Notes under the pieces: generated by a model
What the model saw: the letters and a program-made list of their open reading frames with translations, nothing else
The model's database searches: none
What the model was told of the DNA's origin: nothing
In this document: piece after piece, positions 27,112-33,600 of the stretch
Position numbering within the stretch: position 1 is the first letter of the stretch
Layout of the letters: each line of letters starts with the position of its first letter
Position numbers and translations under genes: made by a program
Origin: Thiogranum sp.
GTDB lineage: Bacteria; Pseudomonadota; Gammaproteobacteria; DSM-19610
Direction of reading: 5' to 3'
Assembly (NCBI GenBank): GCA_030148915.1
Contig: JASBSN010000117.1
Location: 1 to 33,600 of the forward strand
Length of the DNA: 33,600 bases

Positions 27112-27432
27112 TCAGGCGACGATCTCTGTGAGGGTTATATCGCCGGATGTATCGACCACGACCTCATCGACCGAGGGGACGCGACTGAGAATATAACCCG
27201 CCATCAACAGCACCATGCGCGTATTCTCCGTATGGAAGGCGCCGAAGACACGGTCAGCGACTATCTGACAGCGCTGATACAAATCCGGTTTTTCCACCCA
27301 AACGCGGCTCATCTGCCAGCCCTTGTCCATATCCTGGTCCATTTTGGCGTAGAATTCCTGCGCTTCGTGCATCACCTGTTCGGGCACATCGATATCGTAG
27401 GTTTGATCGTCTATGGTCAGTTTCAATATCAT
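27112..27432 (-). CDS. Unknown 106-aa protein
   Basis: A small acidic soluble protein: a beta-hairpin start ('LKLTIDDQTYDIDVPEQVM') followed by helices ('AQEFYAKMDQDMDKGWQMSR', 'LYQRCQIVADRVFGAFHTEN', 'RMVLLMAGYILSRVPSVDEV'). Not recognised as a named family, although the regular pattern suggests a real conserved protein. GGAGAG lies at good spacing from the ATG at 27432. It is a single gene between two convergent/divergent neighbours and shares a 37-bp promoter gap with ybiX. Confidence 0.75.
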   Translation of the reverse strand: MILKLTIDDQTYDIDVPEQVMHEAQEFYAKMDQDMDKGWQMSRVWVEKPDLYQRCQIVADRVFGAFHTENTRMVLLMAGYILSRVPSVDEVVVDTSGDITLTEIVA

Positions 27433-27469: not shown

Positions 27470-28144
27470 ATGCTGCTCATAATCCCCGCCGTACTCGACG
27501 CCGCCAAACTGCGGCAGGTGCGCTCGTTACTCGACCAGGGGCAATTCGTCGACGGCCGGCTGTCGGCGGGCGACACCGCCCGGCGGGTCAAACACAACGA
27601 GGAGCTCGAGCCAGGCAGCAAACACATGCAGCAGCTCAACGCCCTGGTGATGGGAGCGTTGGTTCAGCACCCGGTGTATCAGGCGGCCGCCATGCCCTAC
27701 CGGGTGGCCACACCCTACTACGCCCGCTACACCCTCGGCATGTCTTACGGTGATCACGTCGACGATCCGGTCATGGGGCCGCCGGGAGGACAGTACCGGT
27801 CCGATATTTCCACCAGCATTTTCCTCAATGCACCTGAACAGTACCAGGGCGGCGAGCTGGTGATACGCACCTCGTATGGCGAGCAGACGGTGAAATCAGC
27901 CGCCGGCGACGCCGTTATCTATCCTTCATCCAGTCAGCATCACATCAATGAAATCACCGCCGGAGAACGTCTGGTGGCGGTAACCTGGACCCAGAGCATG
28001 CTGCGTGACCCGCAACAGCGTGAACTGTTGTACCAACTCTATCAGGCGCGCGAAGCGCTGCGCCGGTCACGACCCGAGGACCAGACCACCCACCAGGTCG
28101 ATCAGGTCTACGTCAACCTGGCGCGTATGTGGTCCGAACTCTAA
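27470..28144 (+). CDS. ybiX: PKHD-type Fe(II)/2-oxoglutarate dioxygenase YbiX/PiuC
   Basis: A 224-aa protein of the PiuC/YbiX family, usually about 225 aa. Iron ligands are His96-x-Asp98 in 'SYGDHVDDPVMG' and His157 in 'YPSSSQHHINEI'; Arg167 in 'GERLVAVTW' binds 2-oxoglutarate. 'RSDISTSIFLNAPEQYQGGEL' is a strong family signature, as is 'SMLRDPQQRELLYQL'. In many bacteria this gene lies beside TonB-dependent siderophore receptors (PiuA/Fiu) and is iron-regulated; no receptor gene is present here, so its context differs. The exact substrate is not known. Confidence 0.93.
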   Translation: MLLIIPAVLDAAKLRQVRSLLDQGQFVDGRLSAGDTARRVKHNEELEPGSKHMQQLNALVMGALVQHPVYQAAAMPYRVATPYYARYTLGMSYGDHVDDPVMGPPGGQYRSDISTSIFLNAPEQYQGGELVIRTSYGEQTVKSAAGDAVIYPSSSQHHINEITAGERLVAVTWTQSMLRDPQQRELLYQLYQAREALRRSRPEDQTTHQVDQVYVNLARMWSEL

Positions 28145-28170
28145 GGAAGCTCTGATTAAATGCGGCGGTC

Positions 28171-28205
28171 AAAAAAAACGGGCCAGGTACCTGCGCACCG
28201 GCCCG
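28171..28205 (-). terminator. Intrinsic terminator closing the five-gene minus-strand unit
   Basis: On the minus strand CGGGCC and GGCCCG arms (28200-28205 and 28179-28184) plus inner GGT/ACC pairs form a hairpin with one bulged base, followed by eight T (28171-28178). It sits about 20 bp after the stop of the 67-aa gene at 28226. Confidence 0.88.
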
Positions 28206-28225: not shown

Positions 28226-28429
28226 TTAGCGGTGCGAACCTTTTTCGCTGTGGGCGATATCAACGAGCTTCATCGCCATATCGTTATATTCCTGGCGGTA
28301 ATTACTCAGCTCGTGGCCGTCGGCCGGCGCGAAGTATTCCTGCTGAGAGACGCCGTTCTGGTGTTCATACGCGATGAACTTTTTCTGCATCTCGATCATT
28401 TTCTTGATCATCTCTTGCTTGTCGCTCAT
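28226..28429 (-). CDS. Small 67-aa protein downstream of the DsrC-like gene
   Basis: A soluble helical protein rich in Met, Gln and Glu ('QEMIKKMIEMQKKFIAYEHQ', 'SQQEYFAPADGHELSNYRQE', 'AMKLVDIAHSEKG'). Not recognised. It has a GGAGG ribosome-binding site 8 bases before its ATG and its own terminator just downstream, and follows the DsrC-like gene by about 110 bp. The open frame extends further upstream as a shadow of that gene, but the GGAGG-ATG start is clear. The pairing suggests a partner of the DsrC-like protein (inference). Confidence 0.78.
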   Translation of the reverse strand: MSDKQEMIKKMIEMQKKFIAYEHQNGVSQQEYFAPADGHELSNYRQEYNDMAMKLVDIAHSEKGSHR

Positions 28430-28538
28430 GGTTTTGCCTCCAAAGCGTTCATTTCTACAGGCGTGCGCCGCACGATGATTGCGGGCAACTATATTACGAG
28501 CCCCTAATGCGGGGCTATATCCCATATGGGCAGGCCGA

Positions 28539-28877
28539 TTAATAACCGCCCTTGCGGGTGCTCTGCGGCAGGCCGGCGATCTTGCGGCCCTGCTTGCTGG
28601 GCATACCGGGAAACATATTGTACATGTCCTTACTGGTGGGCTTGGTACCCCATTTCTTCGCCATTTCCTTGAGGATAGTGCGCTCGTTGGGCTCGTTGCC
28701 GCCGTTGTTATAGTGCTCGTCGCGCAGATAATTGACCACATCCCAGTGCTGCTCGGTCATTTCCAGTTTATCGGCATCGGCAATGGCCTGGCCCACAGCT
28801 TCGGTCCAGTCCTCCATGTTCACCAGATAGCCATTTTCTGTGGTTTCGATGGTCTTGCCGTCGACTTGAAGTGCCAT
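28539..28877 (-). CDS. DsrC/TusE-family protein lacking both conserved cysteines (RspA type)
   Basis: A 112-aa protein with the DsrC fold: 'MALQVDGKTIETTENGYLV', 'MTEQHWDVVNYLRDEHYNN', 'RTILKEMAKKWGTKP', 'YNMFPGMPSKQGRKIAGLP'. In true DsrC the sulfur-carrying arm ends '...CKIAGLPxPxxCx' with two cysteines; here the first is Arg ('GRKIAGLP') and the end is 'QSTRKGGY', so no cysteine exists in the protein at all. It cannot carry sulfur as DsrC or TusE do. Cysteine-free members have been named RspA and proposed to be regulatory. The ATG at 28877 ('MALQV') has GGAG at 8 bases; an ATG at 28883 is too close to it. About 80 bp of AT-rich sequence upstream may hold a separate promoter. Confidence 0.88.
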   Translation of the reverse strand: MALQVDGKTIETTENGYLVNMEDWTEAVGQAIADADKLEMTEQHWDVVNYLRDEHYNNGGNEPNERTILKEMAKKWGTKPTSKDMYNMFPGMPSKQGRKIAGLPQSTRKGGY

Positions 28878-28962
28878 TATCATTTCTCCATATTAATCAG
28901 TGAGTAGGTAGTAATAGTTAAACAAGATTAAAGATTAATGCAATCCCTTCGCTGCCGCGCGC

Positions 28963-29673
28963 CTAGGGGGATTTTTTGTCGGCCTTGGCGGCGTGGACAG
29001 CCTTGATATCCTTATGCGGGATAAACAAACCACAACCAAAAGTCCGATAGCCGCCGAGCCCTTGTTGCTGCAGGGTGATGGCCTCGGCCGGTTCAAGATC
29101 CGCCAGCATAATGCTGCGGGTATAAAGATCGCCCGCGGGGTGCTGCAATACATGCGTTAGCCCGCAAAGCATTTTTCGCACCTTGATATCCAGCGCCTGC
29201 AACGACTCCACGGCCGCCGCCATGAAGGCCGCTTCGTCGCCGTGATCGACGCCCTCGGGTACCACGACATAGCGCGAGAACTGTGTGGACAATGTGCTGA
29301 AAAGTTTTATCTTCGACTCGCCGACCGTCAACGGATGACCGCCGACGTCCAAAGTTTTCCCGGTCAGCGCCTGCGCCGCCTCGATCCGCGCCTTGGGCAC
29401 CCGCAACGTCATTCGCGCACGCCGGGAAAGGTGCAAAAGCGCCGTGGCATCGCCCTCGGGACGCATCCAGCCGTTGCCCGATTCCGCGCCGTGGATCAGG
29501 TGAATGCCCGCCAGCGCCTCGGTCTCTATCCACGGCAATGCCGCGCACACGGCCCGGGAAAAGCTATAGGCGTGATCCAGGGGCAGGCACTTGCAGCGGA
29601 TGCTGTAGACCAGATCCACAACATCGTCCGCTACCTGCGGTGAATTTTCGTCTCTATCCTCTTCCCAGAACAT
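28963..29673 (-). CDS. Orphan Cas6/Cmx6-like protein (CRISPR RNA endonuclease family)
   Basis: A 236-aa protein that closely fits the Cas6 subgroup called Cmx6 (subtype I-MYXAN): 'DVVDLVYSIRCKCLPLDHAY' with a candidate catalytic His34, 'GIHLIHGAESGNGWMRP', 'LLHLSRRARMTLRVPKARIE', 'ALTGKTLDVGGHPLTVGE', 'SLQALDIKVRKMLCGLTHVL', and the C-terminal Gly-rich loop 'QQQGLGGYRTFGCGLFIPHK'. Cas6 enzymes cut repeat hairpins to make crRNAs. No other cas gene or repeat array is in this window, so a CRISPR role is doubtful; an RNA-binding or RNA-cutting role in another process is possible (inference). It lies in a minus-strand run between a 67-aa gene and the RspA-type gene, facing away from dsrA. Confidence 0.82.
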   Translation of the reverse strand: MFWEEDRDENSPQVADDVVDLVYSIRCKCLPLDHAYSFSRAVCAALPWIETEALAGIHLIHGAESGNGWMRPEGDATALLHLSRRARMTLRVPKARIEAAQALTGKTLDVGGHPLTVGESKIKLFSTLSTQFSRYVVVPEGVDHGDEAAFMAAAVESLQALDIKVRKMLCGLTHVLQHPAGDLYTRSIMLADLEPAEAITLQQQGLGGYRTFGCGLFIPHKDIKAVHAAKADKKSP

Positions 29674-29705: not shown

Positions 29706-29909
29706 TCAGCGTTTGGCGGCCGCGGCAAACGCCGCTTCCAGTCGGTCTTCCCAGCTCTCCGGTGTATCCGGAAACGGCGGCCGTACGTCCATCTGGAAAA
29801 ACAGCTCACCACCCCGGGCCTTTTCCTCGACAATCTCCCGCAGCTCGTCAAAAGACTCTAATTCATGATGTTTTAAAAGGATTTCACTCAAACACAACAT
29901 CTGCTTCAC
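29706..29909 (-). CDS. Small 67-aa protein coupled to the TauD-like oxygenase
   Basis: A soluble, mostly helical acidic protein ('LCLSEILLKHHELESFDELR', 'EIVEEKARGGELFFQMDVRP', 'TPESWEDRLEAAFAAAAKR'). Not recognised. I chose the GTG at 29909 because GTGA overlaps the TGA stop of the oxygenase gene by 4 bp; an ATG at 29900 is the alternative. It lies 32 bp before the Cas6-like gene, so it probably belongs to the same transcript. Confidence 0.68.
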   Translation of the reverse strand: MKQMLCLSEILLKHHELESFDELREIVEEKARGGELFFQMDVRPPFPDTPESWEDRLEAAFAAAAKR

Positions 29910-30838
29910 CTGTCCCGGTCAAAGTCTCGGATGCGATCGAAGTAGCGCGCGCGGTATAACAGGCGCCCCGTGCCAGCGCCGCTATGGTCCGCGAACGCGC
30001 TGCGACAATGCAGCACATTATTGCTGATAAAGCCCTGACCGGCCTGCAGCCGGTGGCGAAATATATAGGGCGAGTCCTGCTGAAACAAGTTCAGCAGGCA
30101 TTGCGCCGCCGCCTGGGTGGTTGAATCGTCCTTCCAGCGGATATTGCGCGTGCGCGCCGAATAGCGCAGGTGCAGGTGACCGTCGGCATCGATGGAAATA
30201 ACCGGCCCGGTCTGTTCGGGGCGCAGCTGCTGAGCGTCCTGCACGTTTGCCGGAATACTCATGGCGTCGGCGGCCATCAGCGCGCGGACAAACTGCGGAT
30301 TCTCGTCGCGCAGCCGAATGAAGGCGATTTCATGATCGAGTATGGCATTTTCGCCGCCGCTGGCGGCCGGGCGCACACAGTGCAGAATCACGCCGCGGAT
30401 CTGCTGCTCGGCGCGGTTGTAATAGCCGTCGGTGTGCCAATTGAGGGGCTTATCGGTGTAGGGGATATATTCACCCTGCCGGCGCCTTGCCGCCACCTGT
30501 AGCGAGCTGATGCCATCTTCATCCGCACACAGATTGCTGTCCAGGCGCTCCAGACCCAGCTGGCGCCCCAGCTGGCGCAGCGTGGCTTTGTCGGCTACCT
30601 GATTCGCGGGCAATTGATAAATAGCGAAATTCGCCCGTTTTACCGCCCCCAGCACGGCCCTGCGCTCCGCGGCGGACAGCGCCCTGCCGTCGGCAATCGG
30701 TACCGTCAGTTCGTCGAGCGAGCACGGGTAGTCCGCCAGCTTGCCCTTACGCCAGTCACGGTACGCCTGCTCGCAATCCGGGTGAAATGGGCTGTGTAAG
30801 GCCGCCGGTGTCTGTGGAATTGCCAAACCTGCCATCAT
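29906..30838 (-). CDS. TauD/gamma-butyrobetaine-hydroxylase-type 2-oxoglutarate/Fe(II) oxygenase
   Basis: About 310 aa from the ATG at 30838 (ATG at 30835 is equally possible; a TTG at 30886 is less likely; none has a clear ribosome-binding site). Iron ligands are His135-x-Asp137 in 'PLNWHTDGYYN' and a distal His in 'FISNNVLHCRSAF', with the 2-oxoglutarate Arg in 'GRLLYRARYF'. 'VRPAASGGENAILDHEIAF' is typical of the TauD/TfdA superfamily. The N-terminal section ('FHPDCEQAYRDWRKGKLADY') differs from true TauD, so taurine is not a supported substrate. It leads the five-gene minus-strand run and is divergent from dsrA. Confidence 0.85.
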   Translation of the reverse strand: MMAGLAIPQTPAALHSPFHPDCEQAYRDWRKGKLADYPCSLDELTVPIADGRALSAAERRAVLGAVKRANFAIYQLPANQVADKATLRQLGRQLGLERLDSNLCADEDGISSLQVAARRRQGEYIPYTDKPLNWHTDGYYNRAEQQIRGVILHCVRPAASGGENAILDHEIAFIRLRDENPQFVRALMAADAMSIPANVQDAQQLRPEQTGPVISIDADGHLHLRYSARTRNIRWKDDSTTQAAAQCLLNLFQQDSPYIFRHRLQAGQGFISNNVLHCRSAFADHSGAGTGRLLYRARYFDRIRDFDRDR

Positions 30839-31334
30839 GGAATATACGCCATCGATACCCGCTCGGGCCCCAAACCAAAACCGCAAGTTTACCAGAATTG
30901 TCTCCCGCCAAGTTACGTAAAGGCACTGGATTTTATGCAGTTAAGTAAAGCGCCTTACGCTACTCGGGCCTGCGTGACGGCGGCGTTGCGCATAAGCGTT
31001 TGATAATATTAACGCATTCTTTACTAATGGCTTTTGCGGCCTTGCCACTTTATACTCCCCGGCCGTCATCAAGCACTTAAACGCTCTATCTCCAAAGGGA
31101 TAGTGTTGTTGATGTCGTACACCCCAAGGGTAGGGTTCTCGACGACCACACCGACGCCTAGACTTCGGGGTGCCCGGATGAGGGGTTCCACGTATCGGCC
31201 CTGCGGGTACCGATAGGGGAACTTCGGTTCATCCTAGTGAGAAATACCGAGTTTTGAGATTTTACGTGACGTAAACGGTGGCTCTGACTGACGTACGCAG
31301 CATCCGCCAACCAACAGACTGGAAGGAGACGGCC
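30839..31334. promoter_or_regulatory. Divergent regulatory region between the TauD-like gene and dsrA
   Basis: This 496-bp stretch holds no convincing gene. It has several dyads: TTACGTAA (30913-30920), GCGTT-N10-AACGC (30996-31015) and TTTACG-TGA-CGTAAA (31261-31275). A TATACT at 31051-31056 could be a -10 box for dsrA, but no good -35 is placed before it. Sequence from about 31114 to 31222 can form RNA hairpins (separate entry). It probably controls both transcripts. Confidence 0.6.
31114..31222 (+). promoter_or_regulatory. Potentially structured dsrA leader with competing hairpins
   Basis: Structure A: ACCC (31121-31124) with GGGT (31128-31131), closed by GTCGT (31114-31118) with ACGAC (31142-31146). 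Structure B uses the same bases: CACCCCAAG (31120-31128) with CTT-C-GGGGTG (31163-31172, one bulge). A third element pairs GTTCC (31185-31189) with GGAAC (31218-31222), TATCGG (31193-31198) with CCGATA (31210-31215) and CCC (31199-31201) with GGG (31205-31207). Whether this is transcribed is unknown. Confidence 0.45.
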
Positions 31335-32591
31335 ATGGCTGACAAGCATTACCCAACGCCTATGCTCGACGAACTGGAAAACGGCCCCTGGCCGAGTTTT
31401 ATTTCTGGCATCAAGCGCCTGCGCGACGATCACCCGGATGAGCGTATCCGTAAAGTAACTAATTCCCTGCTCGGTCAGCTCGAGCACTCCTATGAAACCC
31501 GCAAGGGTTATTGGAAAGGCGGCACGGTTTCCGTGTTCGGTTACGGCGGCGGTATCATCCCCCGGTTTTCGGAAGTCGGCGACGCCTTCCCGGAATCGCG
31601 CGAGTTCCATACCCTGCGCGTACAGCCGTCACCGGGCAACTACTACACCACTGATATGCTGCGCAAGCTCGGTGACAGCTGGGAGAAGTGGGGTTCCGGT
31701 TTGCAGACCTTCCACGGTCAGACCGGCAACATCATGTTCATCGGTACCACCACCGAAAACACCCAGCACTTCTTCGACGAAATCAACGAATACGGCTGGG
31801 ATCTCGGCGGCGCCGGTCCCTGCGTGCGCACCGCGATGTCCTGCGTCGGCGCGGCTCGCTGCGAAATGTCCTGCGCCAACGAGCACGGCATTCACCGCCA
31901 TCTGGTGAACAACTTCACCGACGACGTGCACCGTCCGGCCCTGCCTTATAAGTTCAAGTTCAAGGTCTCGGGCTGCCCGAACGACTGTCAGAACTCGATC
32001 GAACGTTCCGACTTTGCCGTCATCGGCACCTGGCGCGACGATATGAAAGTCGACCAGGAAGAGGTCAAAGGCTACGTCGCCAAGAAGGGGCGTCAGTACA
32101 TTATCGATAACGTTATCACCCGCTGTCCGACTCAGGCGCTGAGTCTGAACGACGATGACACACTGGCCGTGGACAACCGCAACTGTGTGCGCTGCATGCA
32201 CTGTCTGAACGTTATGCCCAAGGCCTTACACCCCGGTGACGATAGAGGCGTGACCATTCTTATCGGTGGTAAGCGCACCCTGAAGATCGGTGACCTGATG
32301 GGCACCGTGGTGGTCCCGTTCAAGAAACTGGAAACCGAGGAAGACTACGAGTCGTTGACGGAAATGGCTGAGGAAATCATTGATTTCTGGGCCGAGAACG
32401 GCCTCGAGCACGAGCGCTGCGGTGAAATGATCGAGCGTATCGGGCTGGTGAACTTCCTCGAAGGTATCGGTGTGGAAGTCGACCCGAATATGGTCGGCAA
32501 TCCGCGTCAGTCCTCTTACGTCCGCATGGACGGCTGGGACGAAGAAGCCGAGAAGTGGTTCCAGCGCCAGGCTGAAAAAGCCAGCGCTTAA
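31335..32591 (+). CDS. dsrA: Dissimilatory sulfite reductase alpha subunit (oxidative type) DsrA
   Basis: A 418-aa cytoplasmic subunit that with DsrB forms the siroheme/iron-sulfur enzyme; in sulfur oxidisers it runs in reverse, releasing sulfite from sulfur delivered as DsrC trisulfide. Cysteines for the siroheme-linked cluster are C170-x5-C176 and C214-x3-C218 ('SCVGAARC', 'SGCPNDC'); the ferredoxin domain has C264 and 'CVRCMHC' (284-290). The N-terminus 'MADKHYPTPMLDELENGPWP' and the overall text resemble oxidative-type DsrA of purple sulfur bacteria. A strong AAGGAG precedes the ATG at 31335. dsrB follows after about 98 bp. Confidence 0.97.
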   Translation: MADKHYPTPMLDELENGPWPSFISGIKRLRDDHPDERIRKVTNSLLGQLEHSYETRKGYWKGGTVSVFGYGGGIIPRFSEVGDAFPESREFHTLRVQPSPGNYYTTDMLRKLGDSWEKWGSGLQTFHGQTGNIMFIGTTTENTQHFFDEINEYGWDLGGAGPCVRTAMSCVGAARCEMSCANEHGIHRHLVNNFTDDVHRPALPYKFKFKVSGCPNDCQNSIERSDFAVIGTWRDDMKVDQEEVKGYVAKKGRQYIIDNVITRCPTQALSLNDDDTLAVDNRNCVRCMHCLNVMPKALHPGDDRGVTILIGGKRTLKIGDLMGTVVVPFKKLETEEDYESLTEMAEEIIDFWAENGLEHERCGEMIERIGLVNFLEGIGVEVDPNMVGNPRQSSYVRMDGWDEEAEKWFQRQAEKASA

Positions 32592-32600
32592 AATCACCCC

Positions 32601-32653
32601 GGTTCCTTAAGAACCAGGTACCTAGGGTCCGGAGCGGCACCACCCCGCTCCGG
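32601..32653 (+). other. Two perfect hairpins between dsrA and dsrB
   Basis: GGTTC (32601-32605)/GAACC (32611-32615) with a 5-base loop, then a stronger CCGGAGCGG (32629-32637)/CCGCTCCGG (32645-32653) with a 7-base loop. Neither is followed by a T run, so they are not intrinsic terminators. They may stabilise or mark an mRNA cleavage point between subunits (inference). Confidence 0.65.
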
Positions 32654-32689
32654 CGCCTGCTAGGCAGTATTCAAATTCAGGAGAGCAAT

Positions 32690-33600
32690 ATGGCAATGGC
32701 AGACATGAGGGAACCGATCGAGTCAGGTTGTCCCGACGGTTTCCAGTACATGCATCCGACGATGCGCAAAAACTTCGGTCAGTGGAAGTACCACGATGAC
32801 CCGCAGCCCGGCGTGTTGCGCCACGTGGCCTTCAGCGGCGACCAGGTCTTCACCGTCAAGGCCGCTACCCAGCGTATTCTCGACGTCTTCACCCTGCGTA
32901 CCCTGTGCGACATCGGTGACAAATACGCCGACGGTTTTATCCGCTTCACCATTCGTTCCAACATTGAATTCATCGTCACTGACGAAGCCAAGGTACAGCC
33001 GTTGATCGACGCGCTGACCAACGCCGGATTTGTGGTCGGCGGCACCAAGAACTCGGTGACCAGCCTGTCCCACACCCAGGGCTGGTTGCACTGTGATATT
33101 CCCGGCACCGACGCCTCCGGCGTGGTGAAATCGATGATGGACGAACTGATCGGGGAGTTCACCGCCTGGAACATGCCCAACCGCGTGCACATGACCACCT
33201 CCTGCTGTCAGATCAACTGCGGCGGCCAGGGCGACATCGCCATCAACGTGCAGCACACCAAACCGCCGAAGATCGATCACAACCTGGTCTCCAATGTTTG
33301 TGAGCGCCCCTCGGTGGTCGCCCGTTGCCCGGTAGCCGCTATTCGCCCGGCCATGGTCAACGGCAAGCCGTCGCTCGAGGTCGACGAGAAGAAGTGCATG
33401 TGCTGCGGCGCCTGCTACCCGCCGTGCCCGCCGATGCAGATCAACGACGCGGAGTACACCAAGCTCGCGATCTGGGTCGGCGGCAATCATTCGAACGCGC
33501 GCAGCAAGCCGTCCTTTCAGAAGCTCGTGGCGGCGGGCATCCCGAACAATCCGCCCCGCTGGCCGGAGGTAACCCGCATCGTGAAAAAGATTTTGAGCGT
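32690..33600 (+). CDS. dsrB: Dissimilatory sulfite reductase beta subunit DsrB, 3' end cut off
   Basis: The start is ATG 32690 with AGGAG upstream; the frame is still open at the window end after 303 codons, so roughly the last 50 residues of a normal ~355-aa DsrB are missing. Visible features: 'SGCPDGFQYMHPTMRKNFGQ' and 'FTLRTLCDIGDKYADG' near the N-terminus, the siroheme-domain cysteines in 'TTSCCQINCGG' (about 171-177), and an intact ferredoxin domain 'CMCCGACYPPC' (236-246). It is the catalytic partner of DsrA, carrying the active siroheme in this enzyme family. dsrEFH, dsrC and the rest of the operon would be expected beyond the edge. Confidence 0.97.
   Translation, partial: MAMADMREPIESGCPDGFQYMHPTMRKNFGQWKYHDDPQPGVLRHVAFSGDQVFTVKAATQRILDVFTLRTLCDIGDKYADGFIRFTIRSNIEFIVTDEAKVQPLIDALTNAGFVVGGTKNSVTSLSHTQGWLHCDIPGTDASGVVKSMMDELIGEFTAWNMPNRVHMTTSCCQINCGGQGDIAINVQHTKPPKIDHNLVSNVCERPSVVARCPVAAIRPAMVNGKPSLEVDEKKCMCCGACYPPCPPMQINDAEYTKLAIWVGGNHSNARSKPSFQKLVAAGIPNNPPRWPEVTRIVKKILS

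Follow-up and report, generated by a model that had tools for sequence, protein, structure and literature searches.

A dsr-linked Cas6-family protein in Gammaproteobacteria with a probable role outside CRISPR

The Cas6 operon and the divergent dsrA gene

Cas6 proteins are usually regarded as CRISPR RNA-processing enzymes. The window, that is, the whole 33.6-kb stretch of Thiogranum sp. DNA analysed here, carries a gene of this family in an operon that diverges from dsrA, the gene for the alpha subunit of a dissimilatory sulfite reductase of the reverse type. The features of the region are the following.

28163..28201 (-): intrinsic terminator at the end of the operon, GCGGGCCGG...CTGGCCCGTTTTTTTT; stem and T-run kept in the Thiogranum group
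28226..28429 (-): hyp62, terminal gene of the operon, for a small conserved protein (67 aa when counted from the ATG); adjoins Cas6 in 49 loci
28539..28883 (-): DsrC/TusE-family protein without C-terminal cysteines; PF04358 at 1.3e-31, C-terminus GLPQSTRKGGY
28963..29673 (-): dsr-linked Cas6-family protein, 236 aa; PF09559, TIGR02807, fold match 8fcu_B
29572..29574 (-): codon of His34, which alignment and model make the candidate for the catalytic histidine
29706..29909 (-): hyp67, small conserved protein, operon partner by its co-occurrence with Cas6
29906..30886 (-): TauD/TmpA-like 2-oxoglutarate-dependent oxygenase ORF; PF02668 at 7.5e-25, TmpA (6npb) at 3.9e-8
31086..31164 (+): conserved block, putative dsrA promoter; dyad at 31086-31103, ACCCCAAGGGTAGGGTTCT at 31122-31140, -10-like TAGACT at 31159-31164
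31335..32591 (+): dsrA, alpha subunit of the reverse-type dissimilatory sulfite reductase; TIGR02064 at 658 bits, reads away from the Cas6 operon

In a scan over the genomes of GTDB, 51 relatives were retrieved, many of them titled Thiogranum, Thiohalobacter, Thioalkalivibrio, Sulfuricaulis, Marithrix, Thioploca or Thiomargarita, and the order of genes is near-constant: dsrA, the divergent TauD/TmpA-like gene, hyp67, in many lineages a gene for a helical protein of ~235 aa, Cas6, the DsrC/TusE-like gene and hyp62, which gives Cas6 four or five conserved partners in its operon. In the Marithrix, Thioploca and Thiomargarita loci, hyp67 lies beside or near Cas6 and away from dsrA. The TauD/TmpA-like ORF is syntenic in most loci, and its true start is probably further in than that of the ORF 29906..30886. 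hyp67 matched no Pfam or NCBIfam family convincingly, and its small, confidently predicted model (pLDDT 89) met no solved structure with E < 1 (best Z 2.7); the ~235-aa protein has no family in Pfam, NCBIfam or PDB, and its gene is not detectable in the window's own genome. Both follow Cas6 closely in a sample of 276 Gammaproteobacteria genomes drawn evenly over the class, whose name is taken from the titles of the related loci: hyp67 occurs in 82 genomes, 81 of them Cas6-positive, and the ~235-aa protein in 69, of which 68 are Cas6-positive, the sole Cas6-negative genome being in either case G106, where the contig breaks. To judge from these searches, the two proteins are unannotated families confined to Cas6-carrying genomes. 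In two genomes (G093 and G200), Cas6 has moved out of the operon, and the hyp67 and ~235-aa genes remain side by side elsewhere.

The neighbour on the other side of Cas6, encoded at 28539-28883, scores 98.9 bits against TIGR03342 (DsrC), above the cut-off of 53.5. It shares its family with DsrC, TusE and DsvC but differs from the sulfur-carrier DsrC in the absence of both C-terminal cysteines. The Cys-less C-terminus, GLPxSxRKGGY, is conserved over 88 aligned neighbours, from which both sulfur-carrying cysteines are missing. The penultimate cysteine, Cys111 of the A. vinosum DsrC (1yx3) to which the window protein was aligned, is described as strictly conserved in DsrC sequences (PMC3397948) and is lacking in these neighbours. 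Cys-less dsrC homologues have been reported outside the dsr operon in the Solemya velum symbiont (PMC4287430). Ahead of hyp62, the Thiogranum group shows high conservation at positions 28430-28538 (-), where a stem is present and a GCCT/AGGC pairing could mask the ribosome-binding site. Two genes that flank the operon are syntenic in near relatives: 27470-28144 encodes a PKHD-type hydroxylase, and 27112-27432 an unknown protein of 106 aa.

On the opposite strand, dsrA starts at an ATG (31335) provided with a ribosome-binding site. The elements of the block ahead of it, the dyad being a CTATCTCC-AAAG-GGGATAG-type site, recur upstream of dsrA in ~45 loci in identical order and at near-constant spacing, and by its sequence the block at 31086-31164 resembles a promoter of the dsr operon with a pair of operators. 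A structured leader RNA was considered for the conserved stretch between the TauD-like gene and dsrA and was set aside, since the constant spacing and the downstream TAnAnT box fit DNA operators and a -10 element better; a search against Rfam gave nothing at gathering score, the weaker matches being eukaryotic or archaeal chance ones. A second dsrA-like gene is found in the same genome, far from the Cas6 operon (contig C5:43259-44452, E 5e-173).

Family, fold and conserved residues of the dsr-linked Cas6

In the Pfam scan, the ORF at 28963-29673 (-) matches PF09559 (Cas6) with 208.3 bits and an E-value of 1.4e-61 over positions 1-190 of the 191 in the profile, the curated cut-off being 26.7 bits. 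It also matches TIGR02807, the Cas6/Cmx6 equivalog, with 124.7 bits, above the cut-off of 98.85, as well as several PADLOC Cas6 models. The only convincing sequence relative in the PDB is the Cas6 of a type I-B CAST (8fcj/8fcu; 25% identity). An AlphaFold model computed from 40 homologues (pLDDT 86, pTM 0.82) displays the two ferredoxin-like (RRM) domains of the Cas6 fold, and its top match among solved structures is again the I-B CAST Cas6 (8fcu_B, Z 23.8, rmsd 1.9 A over 193 residues); other solved Cas6 structures overlay with Z 16.9 (5yi6) and Z 13.9-15.6 (P. furiosus entries). This closest solved relative differs from the window protein in belonging to a Cascade-transposon complex and in having Asn in place of His34.

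His34, which in the predicted model sits immediately ahead of helix 1 (residues 35-45), is present in all 99 aligned dsr-linked homologues, taken from ~90 genomes with reduced ones included, and in six of the seven CRISPR-linked comparators, the I-B CAST Cas6 with its Asn being the seventh. The C-terminal G-x-G...G-C-G loop is intact, and its G205, G207 and G213-C214-G215 are at least 94% conserved. R85 is likewise invariant (99/99) and belongs, together with W3, E147, G171 and K221, to the residues specific to the dsr-linked clade, and a GW-R-P segment is found in nearly all dsr-linked copies and is missing in the three most divergent ones and in all comparators. Cyanobacterial Cas6 of type I-MYXAN/I-B (Cmx6) has the Pfam family, the fold and the CG loop in common with the window protein, and the histidine is matched in 6/6 plasmid comparators; it differs in the clade-specific residues and mostly in the extra segment, and also in its setting, since it is encoded in cas3-cmx8/cas8-devR-devS operons (in Gloeobacter without cas genes nearby) whereas the window gene stands in a dsr operon. 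In the tree, the dsr-linked proteins split from cyanobacterial CRISPR Cas6 on a long branch with an SH-aLRT of 99, the comparators for alignment and tree being six sequences from plasmids and a single fragment from the PDB, among which the Gloeobacter sequence is also without neighbouring cas genes.

By its sequence and predicted fold, the product of 28963-29673 is a genuine Cas6-family protein with a candidate active-site histidine and a Gly-rich loop, and alignment and tree place the dsr-linked copies in a separate clade with invariant residues of its own. The first-pass annotation, made from the letters of the window, had claimed that the family motifs, a candidate N-terminal histidine and the Gly-rich loop are retained, and the alignment bears this out; the comparisons that it proposed, with the TIGR02807 and Pfam Cas6 models and by overlay of a predicted structure on Cas6, likewise identify a Cas6.

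CRISPR content and co-occurrence with dsrA

The 33.6 kb of the window gave no CRISPR-like array, and no other cas family turned up among the main ORFs scanned with Pfam, the small ORFs being partly covered; the window gene thus stands apart from the cas operon with array in which, or in the service of which, TIGR02807 proteins are placed. The genome (3.2 Mb in 135 contigs, 99% complete) has a single PF09559 gene, the one at 28963-29673. Its single Cas1 is encoded on another contig, C38 (loci L075 and L076), which carries a type I-G system composed of Cas2, a Cas4g/Cas1g fusion, Csb2, Csb1/Cas7g, a piece of Cas8g/Csx17 and Cas3g, with an array of 37 repeats at a period of ~73 nt. The earlier statement that nothing CRISPR-like is present therefore holds for the window and fails for the genome. 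A Cas6-dependent CRISPR locus elsewhere had been named as the finding that would speak against a non-CRISPR role, and a locus does exist, but it is of type I-G and brings its own Csb2. This Cas5-Cas6 fusion (model cas5_6) differs from the window protein in its family, TIGR02165, and in its place within a cas operon with array; by model name it contains the Cas6 domain of type I-G and supplies the CRISPR Cas6 function, so that the system does not need the window Cas6.

Beside the scanned dsr-linked homologues, no CRISPR arrays were found. Absence of CRISPR in relatives was judged on the markers Cas1, Cas3 and Cas10: a single-contig genome of the same genus (G069) keeps Cas6 but gave no match to Cas1, and neither Cas3 nor Cas10 exceeded the cut-off; the same was observed in 12 genomes, 8 of them in a single contig and 4 with a size of 1.0-1.1 Mb.

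Among the 276 sampled genomes, PF09559 occurs in 92, dsrA in 90 and cas1 in 112. Cas6 and dsrA are found together in 87 genomes, Cas6 only in 5, dsrA only in 3 and neither in 181 (phi 0.93, Fisher 2e-61, a p-value that ignores shared ancestry), whereas the corresponding counts for Cas6 and cas1, 43, 49, 69 and 115, show no association (phi 0.09, p 0.15). The distance between Cas6 and dsrA is below 8 kb in 65 of the 87 genomes with both. Carriers span 71 genera, and three families (f31, f91 and f117) each include genomes that have both genes alongside others that have neither. Cas6 is single-copy in all 92 carrier genomes and persists in genomes of 1.0-1.1 Mb. All three genomes with dsrA and without Cas6 look like assembly breaks at the expected position of the operon: the contig ends inside the operon's ~235-aa gene in G106, ~150 nt upstream of dsrA in G185 and ~650 nt upstream of dsrA in G094, a genus-mate of which has both genes. 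In four of the five genomes with Cas6 and without dsrA, the contig runs out within ~1 kb of the operon on the side of dsrA. An independent draw over the phylum added three further carriers, each with Cas6 beside dsrA, and no viral carriage of the dsr-linked Cas6 was found in IMG/VR, nor any PHROG. Cas6 tracks dsrA and not cas1; the coupling is near-perfect and independent of CRISPR, and the suggestion of a Cas6-fold protein that is retained without CRISPR and linked to dsr genes has thus gained the support of a class-wide sample.

Possible roles and RNA target

In sequence and predicted fold the protein is a Cas6, and it stands in a non-CRISPR role whose function we infer. We consider it probable, at about 0.65, that it is a domesticated Cas6 that has become a fixed accessory of reverse-dsr sulfur oxidation in Gammaproteobacteria and acts on host RNA. 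A Cas6-family protein would have left CRISPR service and joined the reverse-dsr system, where it may recognise a specific host-encoded RNA and would most likely cut it 3' of the recognised element, as Cas6 does. Handling of RNA, and probably cutting, is suggested because the protein keeps the Cas6 fold together with His34 and the Gly-rich loop; the conservation of His34 equally fits RNA binding without cleavage. The cut could serve post-transcriptional control or RNA maturation needed during the oxidation of stored sulfur. hyp67, the ~235-aa helical protein and the Cys-less DsrC-like protein may work together with Cas6, the last being a candidate sensor of the sulfur or redox state. A bolder version of this scheme, which we put forward tentatively, is that an exapted guide-RNA nuclease has turned into a regulatory ribonuclease which, with the Cys-less DsrC as sensor and hyp67 and the ~235-aa protein as partners, would cut a specific host RNA, match the expression of the reverse sulfite reductase to the supply of sulfur and be obligate in gammaproteobacterial dsr oxidation.

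The first-pass annotation had looked for the target in hairpins of the gene's own or the neighbouring transcripts, and this suggestion was not upheld. The gap between dsrA and dsrB, 32592-32690 (+), contains a strong G+C-rich hairpin (CCGGAGCGG...CCGCTCCGG), and such hairpins are strong in many lineages; their stems are unrelated in sequence, they are absent in about one third, and they are absent from small Cas6-carrying genomes in which the gap measures 0-32 nt. The dsrA leader forms a long stem at 31186-31224 (+), GGTTCCACGTATCGG...CCGATAGGGGAACT, with compensated changes within the Thiogranum group, to which it is limited, and even there it is missing in two loci (L002 and L010). Within the operon itself, the median z of hairpins ranges from -1.0 to -0.2 over the slots, values that are indicative, as they come from block shuffles with few replicates. 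No hairpin conserved across lineages was found in any intergenic slot of the operon or in the dsrA leader, and the substrate is probably an RNA encoded in trans, or else a site that lacks a strong conserved stem.

Among other readings, the one that survives best is that the nuclease has been lost and Cas6 persists as an RNA-binding or purely structural subunit together with hyp67, the ~235-aa protein and the DsrC-like protein. The tight tie of these partner genes to Cas6 agrees with it, and the nearest solved relative, the I-B CAST Cas6 with Asn at the position of His34, demonstrates that the fold is used without that histidine; yet His34 is invariant in 99/99 dsr-linked homologues, those of reduced genomes included, and the Gly-rich loop is kept, and we hold such a loss to be rather unlikely. 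A branch of tRNA thiolation or quality control, working with the DsrC/TusE-like protein and linked to the supply of sulfur, is distinctly improbable: DsrEFH and DsrC are homologous to TusBCD and TusE, the sulfur feeders of the tRNA 2-thiouridylase MnmA (PMC3397948), and the neighbour does belong to the DsrC/TusE family, but it lacks the sulfur-carrying cysteines and no tRNA gene is nearby. That the protein acts in trans to mature the crRNA of CRISPR loci in other parts of the genome appears very improbable, even though the window's genome has a CRISPR-Cas locus and 43 of the 92 carriers have cas1, since the locus on C38 is a type I-G system with its own Cas6 domain in Csb2, 49 of the 92 carriers have no cas1 match, Cas3 and Cas10 are below the cut-off in the 12 genomes checked, and the gene follows dsrA and not cas1. 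It is not generally unusual for cas genes to occur on their own, but a neutral passenger or defence-system residue parked by the dsr genes is hardly credible for a single-copy gene of 92 genomes that has a phi of 0.93 with dsrA, invariant residues and a place in an operon, and is kept at 1 Mb.

In open-access papers we found no description of the dsr-linked Cas6. Distributed like a core metabolic gene, it is clearly a candidate for domestication of a Cas protein in the RNA metabolism of the cell, the reading that we prefer. Together with hyp67, the ~235-aa protein, the Cys-less DsrC and the TauD-like oxygenase, it would form an overlooked module on a main pathway of sulfur oxidation. The database label of 'CRISPR gene' would, for the dsr-linked Cas6, mislead the scoring of CRISPR presence in sulfur oxidisers. 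On a plasmid of Gloeobacter morelensis (L096:4974-8841), a PF09559 gene without cas3 or other cas genes nearby adjoins genes of the PAPS-reductase family and for a cupin, possibly another non-CRISPR setting.
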